Shown here piece after piece: positions 7,605 through 63,985 of a DNA stretch of 64,000 nt. How positions within the stretch are numbered: position 1 is the first letter of the stretch; every line of letters begins with the position of its first letter. The DNA is from Exiguobacterium sp. 9-2 (GTDB lineage: Bacteria > Bacillota > Bacilli > Exiguobacteriales > Exiguobacteriaceae). The notes under the pieces were generated by a model. The model made no database searches. It was not told the DNA's origin and saw nothing but the letters and a program-made list of their open reading frames with translations. The translations under genes were made by a program, and so were the position numbers. The DNA lies in the NCBI RefSeq assembly GCF_036287235.1, contig NZ_CP142850.1, forward strand, positions 1,443,127 to 1,507,126, in the 5' to 3' direction.

Positions 7605-8714
7605 TTATGAGCGAACCGGTTCCCGTTCGTTTGTCGTGACGGCTGCCTCGCCATCCGCTTCATACAGAATGACACGATTTCGTCCTTGTTCCTTTGAGGC
7701 ATATAATGCGTCGTCCGCAAGAATATTCATTCGTTGAATGGCGATATGTTTCCCGTGAGCGATCCCGACGGATGCCGTGATGGCAATCGACGGGGATCCG
7801 TCGAGCTGAAAGTGTGTGTTCGCGATCCGTTCTCGAATCCGGTTAGCGACTTTCGTGACTTTTGGAGGCGTGAGATCATAGATGAGGACCATGAATTCTT
7901 CGCCGCCAATTCGAGCAGTGATATCATGCGGACGTGTCTCTTCCTGCAAGATCCGTGCAAACTGTTGCAAGACGAGATCACCGTTCGCATGACCGTACGT
8001 ATCGTTGACATGCTTGAAATGATCGATATCGAGCGCGAGCACATTGTAGACGCGTCCTTCTGCTTCAAGCAATGTCGTCCGTTCGTCCCAGACACGCCGA
8101 TTGTACAGTCCTGTCAAGTGATCGAGTTCTGCTGATTGTTTATAACGCTGGACCTGTTCGTTGAGCAACTGAAAGTCGATCGTCAAGAGACTCGATAACA
8201 GTCCAATCGCAAGTCCGATCGTCCACGTTGAAGCAAGTAAACGAAGAGCGGCGTCACTGAAGCCGAGATTGATCGAGACAGCGATCGAGATCATGAACAA
8301 TGACCAGACGTTCATGATCAGGTTTTGCAAGAGCGGTCGATGGAGTAACCGCTTATGAATGAAGTACATCCCGGTGCTGATGCCGAGGACTGCGAGAAAG
8401 GCGACGATTGATTGCGGGGTCCAGCCGAAGTAAAATCGAGAACAACCGATGATCAGTGTCGCGATGATGAGAGGCGAACGAACGCCATAAAAAGCGAGCA
8501 GGACGAGCGGTAAATGACGTAAGTCCATCCGTAACGATTCATTGACTGCAATTCCTTTAAACATCAATAGCACACCGAGTAGTCCGGTCGCAAGACCAAC
8601 GATGAGGGACTTCATTCTGCTCGATGCGAGGCGTTGACTATAGATGATTTTAGCGATTAAATAAAAGCCGGTGAAGGCGATACAGGCATTCAATAACAAC
8701 TCGGCAATGAACAT
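7605..8714 (-). CDS. diguanylate cyclase with 5TM-LYT sensor domain
   Basis: N-terminal half has five to six membrane segments like the 5TMR-LYT domain of LytS-type sensors; residues about 205-355 form a GGDEF domain with DHLTGLYNRR, DIDHFKHVNDTYGH and the active-site loop GGEEF. An RxxD inhibitory site (RPHD) lies five residues before GGEEF, so feedback inhibition by c-di-GMP is expected. The ATG at 8714 is preferred to a GTG three codons earlier because of spacing from AAGGA. Predicted to synthesise c-di-GMP in response to a membrane signal. Confidence 0.88.
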   Translation of the reverse strand: MFIAELLLNACIAFTGFYLIAKIIYSQRLASSRMKSLIVGLATGLLGVLLMFKGIAVNESLRMDLRHLPLVLLAFYGVRSPLIIATLIIGCSRFYFGWTPQSIVAFLAVLGISTGMYFIHKRLLHRPLLQNLIMNVWSLFMISIAVSINLGFSDAALRLLASTWTIGLAIGLLSSLLTIDFQLLNEQVQRYKQSAELDHLTGLYNRRVWDERTTLLEAEGRVYNVLALDIDHFKHVNDTYGHANGDLVLQQFARILQEETRPHDITARIGGEEFMVLIYDLTPPKVTKVANRIRERIANTHFQLDGSPSIAITASVGIAHGKHIAIQRMNILADDALYASKEQGRNRVILYEADGEAAVTTNEREPVRS

Positions 8715-59894: not shown

Positions 59895-61163
59895 TTAAGA
59901 GCAACAGGAAGTCGATGATTGTGGCAGAGAAACATTGCACACACCCGTCTCTGGTAATGATAAATTGACCTGCTTGGCACGTGCCTCGTCTCCTACAAGA
60001 AAAGCAACGATTGATCGAACTTGTTCATAACCGGTAGCAAGCAGGAAGGTCGGAGCACGACCGTAACTCTTCGCACCGACCAGATAAAGTCCGTGATCTG
60101 GATGACGTAACTCCGCTTCCCCATGTGGACGGACAGTTCCGCAACTATGAAAGTTCGGATCAATCAGAGGAGCAAGTACTCGACTACTCTCGGTGACAGG
60201 ATCGATATCAAGCCGTACTTCCTCGAGGAACGAAAAGTCGGGTCGACTTCCTGCGTTGACGATTAGCTGATCGATGTGATGGAGGGATCGACCATCTTGC
60301 GCAGTGATGCCAAACGACTGTCCTTTCGATTCAATGGATTGTGTCTTGAAGTTGGAGTGAATCCTAATCTGATCTCCTTCAACGAGCTGACGGATACGTG
60401 AACCGAGTGCCCCGCGACCTTCCAGTGCATCCTTATCTTCGCCGCCGTAAGCTTGAACGGGGTCCGATTTGCGAAGGATCCAATGAATCTCCGTTTCAGG
60501 GTGTTGCGCTTTAATGGAGACGAGTTCAAGAAGCGAGTTCAAAGCCGAGTGCCCGCTACCGATGACAGCGACGGATTGATTCGCGAAAACAACAGTATCA
60601 CGTTTCGCATTTACGATCGAATACCGGACAGGTAAGTTCTGCTCGATTTCGACTCGATGACCAGAACTGATTGCAGGGTTTGGTCGCCGGAGGACGCCAG
60701 ATGCATCGATGACCGCGCGAGCGAGAATATGTTTACGTCCATTCGGCGTGTCCATGACTAATTCAAACGGCGTCACTTCGCGTGAGGCATTCGTCATCTT
60801 GTCTAGACCTGCCCGTGAGATCGAGAGAATCTCATGTTGGAAATGTAGGAAAGGGGCAATTTCCGGTAAAGCAGCAAGTGGGGCAAGATATTGATTGATT
60901 AATTCAGTACCGGTCGGCACAGCATCGTCCGTTGGGGCGCTCCAGTCCGTCAACTCGAGCAAATGACGTGCTGCATCACTGATATTGTATTGCCATGTTG
61001 AAAACATCCGAACGTGTTCCCATTGTTTGACCTGATGCGCAATCGAAGGACCTCTCTCAAATAATAAAAACGATTGACCTTCCACTACAAGTTGAGCTGC
61101 AGCTGCAAGACCGATCGGTCCGGCACCGATGATGACGATTGGGTGGGAAGAACCGTATGGCAT
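59895..61163 (-). CDS. FAD/NAD(P)-binding monooxygenase-like protein (ArsO-like)
   Basis: A 422-aa flavoprotein. FAD motif VIIGAGPIGLAAAAQL at about 8-23, NADPH motif VAVIGSGHSALNSLLEL near 190, and ATGYEQ/GAKSYGRAPTFLLATG near the C-terminus, as in flavin monooxygenases and ArsO of arsenic loci. No redox-active CxxC in the body, but the tail carries cysteines (GVCN...SCCS). AGGAGG precedes the ATG. It starts 37 nt after a cysteine-rich MarR regulator on the same strand, so it is probably metalloid-induced. Confidence 0.75.
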   Translation of the reverse strand: MPYGSSHPIVIIGAGPIGLAAAAQLVVEGQSFLLFERGPSIAHQVKQWEHVRMFSTWQYNISDAARHLLELTDWSAPTDDAVPTGTELINQYLAPLAALPEIAPFLHFQHEILSISRAGLDKMTNASREVTPFELVMDTPNGRKHILARAVIDASGVLRRPNPAISSGHRVEIEQNLPVRYSIVNAKRDTVVFANQSVAVIGSGHSALNSLLELVSIKAQHPETEIHWILRKSDPVQAYGGEDKDALEGRGALGSRIRQLVEGDQIRIHSNFKTQSIESKGQSFGITAQDGRSLHHIDQLIVNAGSRPDFSFLEEVRLDIDPVTESSRVLAPLIDPNFHSCGTVRPHGEAELRHPDHGLYLVGAKSYGRAPTFLLATGYEQVRSIVAFLVGDEARAKQVNLSLPETGVCNVSLPQSSTSCCS

Positions 61164-61199
61164 GCATAAAACCTCCTTTTTGTTTGTAAATCGCAAGTA

Positions 61200-61646
61200 T
61201 TAGAGACATGGTTTACAACAGACGTCACTCTCGCCCATCTTCGTATTCAGCAAGTCGATTGCCTGGAGGACATGTGCTTTTTCGAAGGAAGTCATTGATG
61301 AGAAGATGGCATCCAGATACGTGTTCATCTCTTCGTCGATGGCTTGAGCAACACGCAATCCTTTTTCGGACAGGCGAAGTAGGTGAATTCGCCGATCGTT
61401 GATCGCGGGACGCTTTACTAGTAGGTCTCGTTTAATCAATGTTTGTACTTGTCGACTGAATGTAGTGATATCAAGAGCGAGTTGATCAGCAATTTCTTGC
61501 ATCGAGGAATCTGGGTGTTTCGCGACTTGATATAATAAATGGCTTTGGACAAGTGAAATATCTTCATCCAGAAAGGCGCAGCAATTCTTGTTAAGCAAAC
61601 CAAAGCGGCGGGTGAACGTTTGAAACAACTCACGTGTCTCAGTCAT
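61200..61646 (-). CDS. cysteine-rich MarR-family regulator, probable metalloid sensor
   Basis: A 148-aa MarR protein with winged helix STQ-type core DSSMQEIADQLALDITTFSRQVQTLIKRDLLVKRPAINDRRIHLLRLSEKG. Five cysteines sit only at the ends: C22-C23 in the first helix (NKNCCAF) and C143, C144, C147 at the C-terminus (VCCKPCL). The ends of MarR proteins pack together at the dimer interface, so these could form a soft-metal or As(III) site (inference). Upstream gene of the FAD enzyme. Confidence 0.82.
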   Translation of the reverse strand: MTETRELFQTFTRRFGLLNKNCCAFLDEDISLVQSHLLYQVAKHPDSSMQEIADQLALDITTFSRQVQTLIKRDLLVKRPAINDRRIHLLRLSEKGLRVAQAIDEEMNTYLDAIFSSMTSFEKAHVLQAIDLLNTKMGESDVCCKPCL

Positions 61647-61697
61647 GTAAAGTCTCCTTTCAAAATATCGTTGATGAGTCAGTTATACGATAAATAT

Positions 61698-61710
61698 TTG
61701 CATTTTGCAA
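61698..61710 (-). promoter_or_regulatory. MarR operator candidate
   Basis: TTGCA-TTT-TGCAA (61698-61710) is a perfect inverted repeat in the 112-bp region between the divergent marR and acetyltransferase genes; it could control both. Confidence 0.55.
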
Positions 61711-61758
61711 GTAAATAGATGATGATTTTAATTAATCAGACGAAAAGGAGGATTTTGG

Positions 61759-62238
61759 ATGTACGTTCGATGGATGAAAGAAGAGGATCGTCTTCAAGTG
61801 ATTGAGATTTATCGTCAAGGGATTGAAGATCGAAATGCGACATTCGAGATGACGATTGATTCGGATGCATTTTGGAATGCGATCACCCAATGTGAACGAT
61901 TCGTATTGATAAAGGAAGACTCTATTGTCGGTTGGGGAAAGTTGAGTCGGATATCTGAACGAACCGTTTACAGTGGGATTCGAGAAGTCAGTATCTATGT
62001 AGAACGCTCCGTCCGTGGTAAAGGCGGTGGTCGACTTTTGTTAGAGACGATGGTTCATTTTGCGGACACTCAAGGCATCTGGACGCTTCAGTCTCAACTG
62101 TTTCCTGAAAACGAGGCAAGCAGACGCTTGCATGAGCGACTCGGATTCGAACTTGTCGGTCGACGGCGTGCGCTTGCAAGACATCATGGAGTATGGCGCG
62201 ATGTGTTGTTGTTGGAACGACGAAACGATTTACGTTGA
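61759..62238 (+). CDS. arsN1: PAT-type GNAT, arsinothricin N-acetyltransferase ArsN1-like
   Basis: A 159-aa GNAT of the phosphinothricin acetyltransferase group: YRQGIEDRNATFEM, VGWGKLS, REVSIYVERSVRGKGGGRLLLE (acetyl-CoA loop), LQSQLFPENEASRRLHERLGFELVGRRRALARHHGVWRDVLLLERR. ArsN1 proteins from ars operons acetylate the amine of arsinothricin or phosphinothricin. AAAAGGAGG precedes the ATG. It stands between a MarR module and arsR-arsB. Confidence 0.82.
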   Translation: MYVRWMKEEDRLQVIEIYRQGIEDRNATFEMTIDSDAFWNAITQCERFVLIKEDSIVGWGKLSRISERTVYSGIREVSIYVERSVRGKGGGRLLLETMVHFADTQGIWTLQSQLFPENEASRRLHERLGFELVGRRRALARHHGVWRDVLLLERRNDLR

Positions 62239-62316: not shown

Positions 62317-62640
62317 ATGTCATCCATCACCGCCAATCATTCGACCATAGAAGTCAGTCAGTTTCTGAAGTTGCTCTCAGATCCGACCCGACTTGAAATC
62401 ATCCGACGTCTTGCGGTGCGAGAGCATTGTGTCTGTGACTTCGTTGATTTGTTTGGCATCTCACAACCGGCAGTCAGTCGTCATCTCAAAATACTTCGGT
62501 CAGCTGGTGTCATCTTGGAAAGACGGGAGCGCCAATGGAACTACTTTCGACTAAATTCAGAGCATGGGCAGCATGACCTGTTGCGACGAATCCTCGAACA
62601 AGTGGGCGTAGCAGACGTTCCTAATACAATAACATGTTAA
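62317..62640 (+). CDS. arsR: ArsR arsenite-responsive repressor
   Basis: A 107-aa ArsR/SmtB repressor. LLSDPTRLEIIRRL then REHCVCDFVDLFGISQPAVSRHLKILRSAGV: the C-x-C in the first half of the DNA-binding helix matches the As(III)-binding box ELCVCDL of classical ArsR. An extra cysteine is the last residue. GAAAGGGGGA precedes the ATG. Releases DNA on As(III) or Sb(III) binding. Confidence 0.93.
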   Translation: MSSITANHSTIEVSQFLKLLSDPTRLEIIRRLAVREHCVCDFVDLFGISQPAVSRHLKILRSAGVILERRERQWNYFRLNSEHGQHDLLRRILEQVGVADVPNTITC

Positions 62641-62689: not shown

Positions 62690-63985
62690 TTGACAGCATC
62701 ACAATGGCTTGCGATCGGAATATTTCTGATCACCTTATTTTTGATCATCAAACAACCGAAAGGGCTCAGCATCGGGTACTCAGCGATCGGAATGGCGATT
62801 GTCGCACTTTTAACGGGCGTTGTCGAACTGGGAGACGTCGCGACCGTCTGGGGGATCATCTGGAACGCGACGTTCACCTTCATCGCCTTGATCGTCATCT
62901 CATTGATCTTAGATGAGATCGGCTTCTTTGAATGGGCCGCGTTACATATGGCCCGAATCGCCCGCGGTGGCGGTCTTAAACTATTCATCTACATGACGTT
63001 ACTCGGTGCCCTTGTCTCGGCCTTGTTCGCGAATGATGGGGCTGCCTTGATTCTGACACCGATCGTCCTCGCGATGGTCCGTCACTTGAAGTTACCGGAT
63101 GCGGTCGTCCTGGCATATGTCTTCGCCTCCGGCTTTATCGCCGACACGGCAAGTCTTCCGTTCGTCATCTCGAACCTCGTCAACATCGTTTCGGCGGACT
63201 TCTTTCACATCGGTTTTACAGAGTATGCGGCACGGATGGTCTTCGTCAACGTCTTTTCGGTCGTTGGTAGTCTGCTTGTCTTGTACTTCTATTTCAAGAA
63301 GCAGATCCCGAAAGTCTATGCCGTCGAGGATTTGGCGAAACCGACGTCTGCGATTCGCGATATGCGGATGTTCCGTGCTTCATGGATCGTCCTTTGCTTG
63401 TTGCTCGTCGGATACTTTACGAGTGATGCGATTGGCATTCCGGTCAGTCTCGTTGCTGGCATCATCGCTGTCTTTTTCTTATTCCTGGCGCAAAAATCAC
63501 CGAGTGTTCCGACGAAGAAGGTCCTTGCCGGTGCCCCGTGGGCGATCGTCTTCTTCTCGCTCGGTATGTATATCGTCGTCTACGGTCTGCGCAATGCGGG
63601 ACTGACGCAAGTCCTTGCGGAGTTGATCGAGTGGATGGCGACGAACCTCGCATCGGCGACGTTTGGAATGGGATTCCTTGCCGCTCTGTTGTCTTCTGTC
63701 ATGAACAATATGCCGACCGTCATGATCAATGCGTTGTCGATCGAGCATACGGCAACGACGGGAGCGATTCGTGACGCCTTAATCTACGCGAATGTCATCG
63801 GTAGCGATCTCGGTCCAAAGATCACGCCGATCGGAAGTCTTGCAACCTTACTGTGGCTCCATGTCTTGCGCTCGAAAGGGGTCCGGATTGGGTGGGGACA
63901 ATATTTCAAAATTGGTACCGTTTTGACGATTCCGACGCTCGCCATCGCGTTGCTCGGACTCTACATCAGTTTATTACTCTATTAA
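62690..63985 (+). CDS. arsB: ArsB arsenite/antimonite efflux permease
   Basis: A 431-aa transporter with 11-12 membrane segments. Recognisable ArsB stretches: FALIVISLILDEIGFFEWAALHMAR, ALFANDGAALILTPIVLAMV, ASGFIADTASLPFVISNLVNIVSADFF and SSVMNNMPTVMINALSI. TTG start 49 nt after arsR with only a weak GAAGTGA site. Exports As(III) and Sb(III). Confidence 0.93.
   Translation: MTASQWLAIGIFLITLFLIIKQPKGLSIGYSAIGMAIVALLTGVVELGDVATVWGIIWNATFTFIALIVISLILDEIGFFEWAALHMARIARGGGLKLFIYMTLLGALVSALFANDGAALILTPIVLAMVRHLKLPDAVVLAYVFASGFIADTASLPFVISNLVNIVSADFFHIGFTEYAARMVFVNVFSVVGSLLVLYFYFKKQIPKVYAVEDLAKPTSAIRDMRMFRASWIVLCLLLVGYFTSDAIGIPVSLVAGIIAVFFLFLAQKSPSVPTKKVLAGAPWAIVFFSLGMYIVVYGLRNAGLTQVLAELIEWMATNLASATFGMGFLAALLSSVMNNMPTVMINALSIEHTATTGAIRDALIYANVIGSDLGPKITPIGSLATLLWLHVLRSKGVRIGWGQYFKIGTVLTIPTLAIALLGLYISLLLY

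Follow-up and report, generated by a model that had tools for sequence, protein, structure and literature searches.

Within the MarR family, OhrR, MexR and MosR share the fold of the protein described here and carry their reactive cysteine in or near α1, MexR being a cysteine-based oxidation sensor; we know of no conserved CC...CC arrangement in any of the three. OhrR and MosR differ from the regulator proposed below in that they sense oxidation (PMC5823404), and a disulphide between the N- and C-terminal parts of MosR was rejected as a precedent, that source giving Cys10-Cys12 within one chain. AdcR and ZitR bind Zn(II), which activates DNA binding, and in AdcR the α1-α2 linker donates the zinc ligand E24; according to the same 2018 paper, MarR metallosensors were known for zinc only (PMC6224198). 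The ArsR family has several arsenic sites, a three-thiolate As(III) site among them: the type-3 site of Corynebacterium glutamicum ArsR combines Cys15 and Cys16 of one chain with Cys55 of the partner chain, and SpArsR, with two cysteines, is selective for methylarsenite (PMC11868830).

The locus analysed here lies in a 64-kb stretch of DNA from Exiguobacterium sp. 9-2 (64,000 nucleotides, hereafter the window), for which the original prediction, made from the letters alone, had pointed to a MarR protein with cysteines only at residues 22, 23, 143, 144 and 147. The open reading frame is confirmed, on the minus strand, a detail that the prediction did not give (Table 1). Its gene is separated by 112 bp from a divergent ArsN1-like gene and followed on the same strand by a flavoprotein gene, and from its ArsN1-like, ArsR/SmtB and ArsB neighbours it follows that the MarR gene sits in an arsenic-resistance cluster, which had also gone unmentioned. 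Our best explanation, to which we give a probability of about 0.77, is that the protein is an autoregulated repressor of a MarR subfamily that acts on a 23-bp palindrome and is released by a trivalent arsenical captured by its cysteine pairs. The proposal that it is an As(III) sensor unrelated to ArsR survives in the conservation of four of the five cysteines, in the MarR fold and in the ars genes that surround the protein and the majority of its relatives, but these neighbours are not specific to inorganic As(III). The probable logic is that of ArsR repressors, with autoregulation in ars operons, a vicinal CC plus further cysteine, possibly across the subunit interface, and arsM as a target, whereas the family and the cysteine positions differ from those of ArsR/SmtB proteins, one of which coexists with the MarR protein in the same cluster.

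Table 1. Coordinates in the window of the MarR gene, its cysteine codons, the neighbouring genes and the predicted regulatory sites.
Feature	Position	Strand	Evidence or remark
FAD/NAD(P)-dependent oxidoreductase, 422 aa from chosen ATG, tail SSTSCCS; predicted regulon member	59895..61163	minus	Pyr_redox_3 68.3 bits (cut-off 30)
Predicted operator 2, MarR/flavoprotein junction	61179..61201		18.1 bits, second best in window; third best 8.5
Predicted MarR-family repressor, CC...CC cysteine pairs	61200..61646	minus	148 aa, ATG start, Pfam
Cys147 codon	61206..61208	minus	Kept in close Exiguobacterium relatives only
Cys143-Cys144 codons	61215..61220	minus	Tail past last helix (model); C-terminal motif in 39/39 best core-only matches
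Cys22-Cys23 codons	61578..61583	minus	α1-α2 linker (model); N-terminal CC in 39/39 best core-only matches
Putative MarR promoter TTGCAA - 17 nt - TATAAC, -35 box inside operator 1	61682..61710	minus	Read from sequence
Predicted operator 1, between MarR and divergent ArsN1-like gene; minus strand TTTACTTGCAAAATGCAAATATT	61693..61715		26.0 bits, best in 64-kb window (matrix with the window left out and its Exiguobacterium relatives kept in)
GNAT acetyltransferase, ArsN1-like, divergent from MarR; predicted regulon member	61759..62238	plus	NF040503 ArsN1 family A 128.2 bits, below cut-off 170
ArsR/SmtB-family regulator, CVC motif	62317..62640	plus	NF033788 90.3 bits (cut-off 55)
ArsB arsenite efflux pump	62690..63985	plus	TIGR00935 670.9 bits (cut-off 415)

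The protein matches the Pfam models MarR_2 (40.2 bits; cut-off 27) and MarR (35.3 bits; cut-off 24.6), and the ArsR-type helix-turn-helix (HTH_5, PF01022), which is present in the neighbouring ArsR/SmtB protein, gave no match to it up to E 0.001. None of the NCBIfam models listed for it passed, its scores lying far below all 10 cut-offs listed, including those of the AdcR/ZitR zinc model NF038251 (26.4 bits; cut-off 175) and of NF052638 (22.1 bits; cut-off 200), the sole OhrR model among the matches listed; BilQ, considered as a named identity, was rejected at 46.1 bits against a cut-off of 125. For the 52 members of alignment A1 the commonest models, among the matches listed (25 of 38 families), were distant ones (BilQ, Saro_0803, HpaR, FabT). 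In the same 3.06-Mb genome, 16 further proteins exceed the MarR_2 cut-off; all of them lack a CC dipeptide, 15 containing 0-3 cysteines and one, a 426-aa frame, four. As CC near both ends also persists in homologues down to about 25% identity, the cysteine pattern of the protein is more than chance.

The gene was found in 8 of the 38 genomes of its own family, all within its own genus (8 of 19), and the full-length query gave a match at E 1e-12 or better in 34 of the 398 genomes of the phylum; a scan of genome contigs returned one relative only. Among 47 collected ORFs, with the window's own counted twice, the N-terminal CC is present in all 47 and the C-terminal CC in 46, the exception being a CGC in Deinococcus. 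Because the full-length query contained the cysteines, the search was repeated with residues 27-139 only, and this core-only query returned 99 places at E 1e-6 or better in the 398 genomes. In 48 of them CC near the first helices is combined with CC or CxC at the C terminus (the both-ends class), 44 lack both motifs, five have just the C-terminal motif and two just the N-terminal pair; all of the best 39 belong to the both-ends class. The whole frames of four of the five 'C-terminal only' proteins (L143, L147, L155 and L156) contain a CC earlier, before α1, and with these counted the both-ends motif is found in 52 of the 99. This core-only count is the unbiased figure, alignments A1-A3 having been picked to hold CC/CC members, so that their invariant cysteines are partly a matter of choice.

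In a tree of the cysteine-free core, 58 rows cluster with a support of 84/86 (all 48 both-ends proteins, seven one-ended and three others), and four label changes account for the 48 against a shuffled mean of 33, which argues for a subfamily mostly of one descent rather than a scattered coincidence; the rows are related, and counts across them are therefore not independent. This unnamed MarR subfamily is marked by CC...CC (Cys 22, 23, 143 and 144). Conservation of the cysteines, by which the original prediction was to be judged, thus holds for four of the five and fails for C147, and the 'CCxPC' tail has to be dropped from any general site, since C147 occurs only in Exiguobacterium proteins of more than 90% identity, those at 66-67% ending in SCCKTLS.

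Several relatives deserve separate mention. L143, L147, L155 and L156 form a MarR sister group that combines a CC before α1 and a C-terminal CC with an ArsP_1-type permease next door and the same operator type; the permease (PF03773) follows relatives that include these four of the five 'C-terminal only' proteins and was checked in three, L155 and L143 among them. L155 had been considered as a two-cysteine protein like the methylarsenite-selective SpArsR and was rejected as such when its full open frame showed the CC before α1; with this pair present in all four, the two-cysteine argument for methylarsenite falls. A pair before α1 does not fit one fixed cysteine site, which makes our best explanation slightly less likely. 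Two distinct CC/CC MarR genes lie about 5 kb apart in locus L056 of G148 (2146-2586 and 7840-8283), with operators before both. A Stenotrophomonas rhizophila plasmid (L044, CP031730.1) carries a copy that is 49% identical and has a Bacillota-like operator, as a result of either lateral transfer or a mixed assembly. More distant relatives with ars neighbours are found on a Pseudomonas conjugative plasmid (L213, NZ_CP026333.1; N-terminal CC, tail CC, upstream site of 9.3 bits) and on a Deinococcus plasmid (L209, NZ_CP083457.1; N-terminal CC, one tail cysteine, upstream site of 8.0 bits). A Sulfitobacter MarR protein was rejected as a member, since it lacks cysteines altogether and has no ars neighbour.

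The monomer predicted from a 47-row alignment has the MarR fold, helical elements flanking the winged helix on either side, with a mean pLDDT of 87.1 and MexR as its best structural match by VIA-align (1lnw_D; Z 14.2, rmsd 2.0 over 115 residues). Its helices span residues 4-14, 32-43, 49-55, 60-72, 94-115 and 120-139, with CC22-23 in the α1-α2 linker (block 21-30, pLDDT 68) and CC143-144 after the last helix (block 141-148, pLDDT 52). The model of a clostridial relative agrees, with helices 6-20 and 35-47 around CC30-31 and a last helix 123-142 before CC145-146 (pLDDT 55 and 75 for the N- and C-terminal cysteine blocks, respectively). The cysteines had been expected inside the first and last helices, which make up the dimerisation domain; the models instead place the pairs in linker and tail, with low confidence there. 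By structural ranges, the N-terminal pair corresponds in position to the ligand-bearing α1-α2 linker of AdcR/ZitR, proteins of the same fold from which the present one differs in its four conserved cysteines, two of them in the C-terminal tail, and in the DNA release that would be expected on binding.

Arsenic genes (ArsM, ArsN1, ArsP, ArsB, Acr3, ArsA and ArsD) were counted by similarity to references taken from subfamily neighbourhoods, so that the tally favours families found beside subfamily loci. At least one lies within 4 kb of 40 of the 48 both-ends MarR genes (arsM in 31) versus 4 of the 44 with neither motif (Fisher p = 1.4e-13, kinship ignored). The neither-motif loci had shorter flanks (median about 2.9 kb), hence a comparison at an equal 1.5 kb, which gave 36 of 48 versus 4 of 44 (p = 6e-11, kinship ignored); three of the four ars-positive neither-motif cases are ArsA-like ATPase matches. 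Eight both-ends loci have no listed ars gene, three of them (L063, L065 and L066) with complete downstream flanks of 4 kb; the L065 protein shares 92% identity with that of L084, where arsM is present. In 29 arsM cases the next long frame begins between -19 and +218 nt from the MarR stop, an operon-like spacing. The next gene is arsM in 19 of the 43 loci drawn (47 minus L046, L058, L060 and L075, where the gene caller missed the regulator), Bacilli having a flavoprotein, ArsN1, ArsR, ArsB or ArsC instead; the identity of arsM was tested on one representative (NF008823, 316.6 bits; cut-off 263). Among annotated plasmid stretches, 11 of 15 contain a named ars gene near the regulator, one of them being the Paenibacillus bovis plasmid copy, which is followed by an 'arsenite methyltransferase' and ArsN1. 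Of the other four, two are Priestia plasmid records in which a permease gene adjoins the regulator and an ArsR/SmtB gene lies at a distance of about 2 kb, one is a Kurthia plasmid stretch, cut by the end of its record, with the flavoprotein next door only, and one is the Sulfitobacter non-member. An ArsN1-flavoprotein-ArsR-arsenic transporter cluster also surrounds two Niallia proteins that are annotated with no more than three cysteines (CC and a single one in the tail). At L059 and L061 (G134, G223), the genes next to the regulator and arsM encode a corrinoid protein, a thioredoxin-like protein and a selenoprotein-like protein rich in cysteine, and methylated arsenic may be handled there by way of a corrinoid.

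With the ArsO model, the flavoprotein encoded beside the MarR gene in the window scores 29.1 bits (cut-off 425), and comparison with solved structures gave two marginal matches only. A C-terminal CC is present in 11 of 12 long flavoprotein-type neighbours, several of which have an N-terminal CC too; relatives of the window's flavoprotein lie in L002, L041-L043, L048-L052 and L054. The window's flavoprotein may be an arsenical oxidase of an unnamed type.

A 23-bp palindrome, AATAGTTGCATnATGCAACTATT, is shared upstream of the regulator. It was sought in the 130 bp upstream in 66 loci (59 both-ends and 7 one-ended), seeded with the window's own site, in a set that includes near relatives and only one of the two G148 genes. 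With a leave-one-out matrix, the upstream site is the best of the whole locus (3-16 kb) in 56 of the 66 and ranks second or third in the other 10; eight of these have a better site at +445 to +611 from the regulator start, mostly before the next gene, and the other two before the flavoprotein (L044) or beside the second CC/CC gene (L056). When the procedure was repeated 30 times at random anchors, each trial yielded between 0 and 5 of 66. Upstream scores in the 66 loci, which are in-sample, have a median of 20.6 bits and a minimum of 8.1, with 64 above 12; the best score upstream of the 44 neither-motif MarR genes is 7.7 bits. The palindrome is missing at the two Niallia three-cysteine proteins, which speaks against a single DNA specificity.

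Only two sites above 10 bits exist in the 64-kb window, operators 1 and 2, which flank the MarR gene; a counterpart of operator 2 is found at +445 in four wider Exiguobacterium loci (L048-L051). Since neither stands before arsR-arsB, ArsR and the CC...CC MarR protein probably control separate gene sets, with possible read-through from the ArsN1-like gene into arsR-arsB. A generic scan of 61100-61800 found no sigma-70 site and no terminator. A -35 box overlapping the operator, as read in the window, is likely in 48 of the 66 loci, where a hexamer matching TATAAT in at least five of six positions lies 16-18 nt past the operator's TTGnnn (9% in shifted controls). Across the whole genome the operator pattern occurs without mismatch at operator 2 only, and with one mismatch at operator 1 (both strands) and at 347947, 1582646 and 2101958; the reversed pattern, used as a control, gave 4 + 11 matches, and these last three sites may therefore be chance.

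We propose that, without arsenic, a MarR dimer would sit on the palindrome overlapping its own -35 box and beside its targets, blocking RNA polymerase and keeping the genes off. The linker pair would capture a trivalent arsenical with the help of one tail cysteine or two, either from its own subunit or from the partner; capture would lock the linker and DNA would be released. Predicted targets in the window are the MarR gene, the flavoprotein gene downstream of it and the divergent ArsN1-like gene, with arsB left to ArsR; for Clostridia, arsM is the predicted chief target.

The conserved pairs could provide two or three thiolates for trivalent arsenic. The three cysteines of the Niallia proteins would be enough for the three-thiolate As(III) site that PMC11868830 describes for ArsR proteins. 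The effector is most likely As(III) and/or methylarsenite: the ArsM, ArsP-type permease and ArsN1 neighbours would fit methylarsenite or other trivalent organoarsenicals as well as As(III). An organoarsenical is favoured by the presence of ArsR in the same cluster and by targets whose substrates are methylated arsenicals or arsenical antibiotics; As(III), too, would be compatible with arsM as a target, and we make no choice between the two. The choice of effector may be set by the position of the N-terminal pair, which lies in the linker in the arsM- and arsN1-linked branches and before α1 in the ArsP-linked sister branch. A broader scheme is tentative and, in our estimate, rather unlikely as a whole: a second, ArsR-independent arsenic regulon, run by a MarR subfamily that is widespread and specialised for trivalent organoarsenicals (methylarsenite, arsenical antibiotics). 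It would switch on arsM in anaerobes and, on plasmids and in Bacilli, the acetylation, oxidation or export of such compounds.

Vicinal thiols would also suit redox or Hg/Cd/Cu sensing, and three other readings have to be weighed against capture of an arsenical. Like OhrR or MexR, the protein might sense thiol redox state or electrophiles, its CC pairs forming disulphides under oxidative stress and ars operons recruiting it for the oxidative stress that arsenic causes; MexR entries are among the best structural matches, a flavoprotein gene adjoins the MarR gene, and many MarR proteins are thiol switches, according to PMC6224198. We hold this to be improbable, because those neighbours that could be named (ArsM, ArsN1, ArsB and the ArsP-type permease) are arsenic-specific, although many clusters are nameless, and because the CC plus one tail cysteine of the Niallia proteins suits a three-thiolate arsenic site. 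Still harder to credit is a response to a different soft metal, such as Sb(III), Bi(III), Cu(I), Hg(II) or Cd(II), by a protein tied to ars operons through shared mobile elements: the arsM gene found directly downstream in 19 of the 43 loci drawn tells against it, even though many soft metals are bound by cysteine clusters, cadA, encoding a P-type ATPase, is located near the plasmid copy in Stenotrophomonas, and gene context alone does not separate Sb(III) from arsenic.

Most characterised MarR proteins bind organic ligands, and the ArsN1-type acetyltransferases are named for the organoarsenical arsinothricin. The cysteines could then be structural, for instance a Zn-thiolate clamp, with an organic ligand (for example a natural arsenical antibiotic or an aromatic compound) as effector in the usual MarR pocket. 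The pairs, however, lie in low-confidence segments of the models, unlike a structural clamp, and the AdcR zinc-family model scores only 26.4 bits against its cut-off of 175, so that we give this reading as little credence as the soft-metal one. The cysteine pattern itself is confirmed, with a stronger case than the original prediction made for it, and the arsenic reading is, as a prediction, well supported by gene context and conservation.

A literature search on arsenic and MarR proteins found no MarR arsenic sensor among the matches listed, subscription papers being mostly outside its reach, and a description elsewhere is possible. Where individual papers were searched for the name, MarR turned up in their reference lists, in connection with antibiotics or as a chance string within other words, or did not turn up. 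As far as the literature found goes, the CC...CC proteins are new: a MarR subfamily that probably consists of arsenic-responsive repressors unrelated to ArsR. With a 23-bp target site and four conserved cysteines, the claim is directly testable. If it is true, the MarR family, in which the 2018 paper knew just one kind of metallosensor (PMC6224198), would gain one that does not sense zinc, many arsenic-methylation genes of bacteria would have a known regulator, which would be useful for predicting the production of toxic methylarsenite in flooded soils and for new arsenic biosensors, and arsenic sensing would have arisen on a second DNA-binding scaffold.
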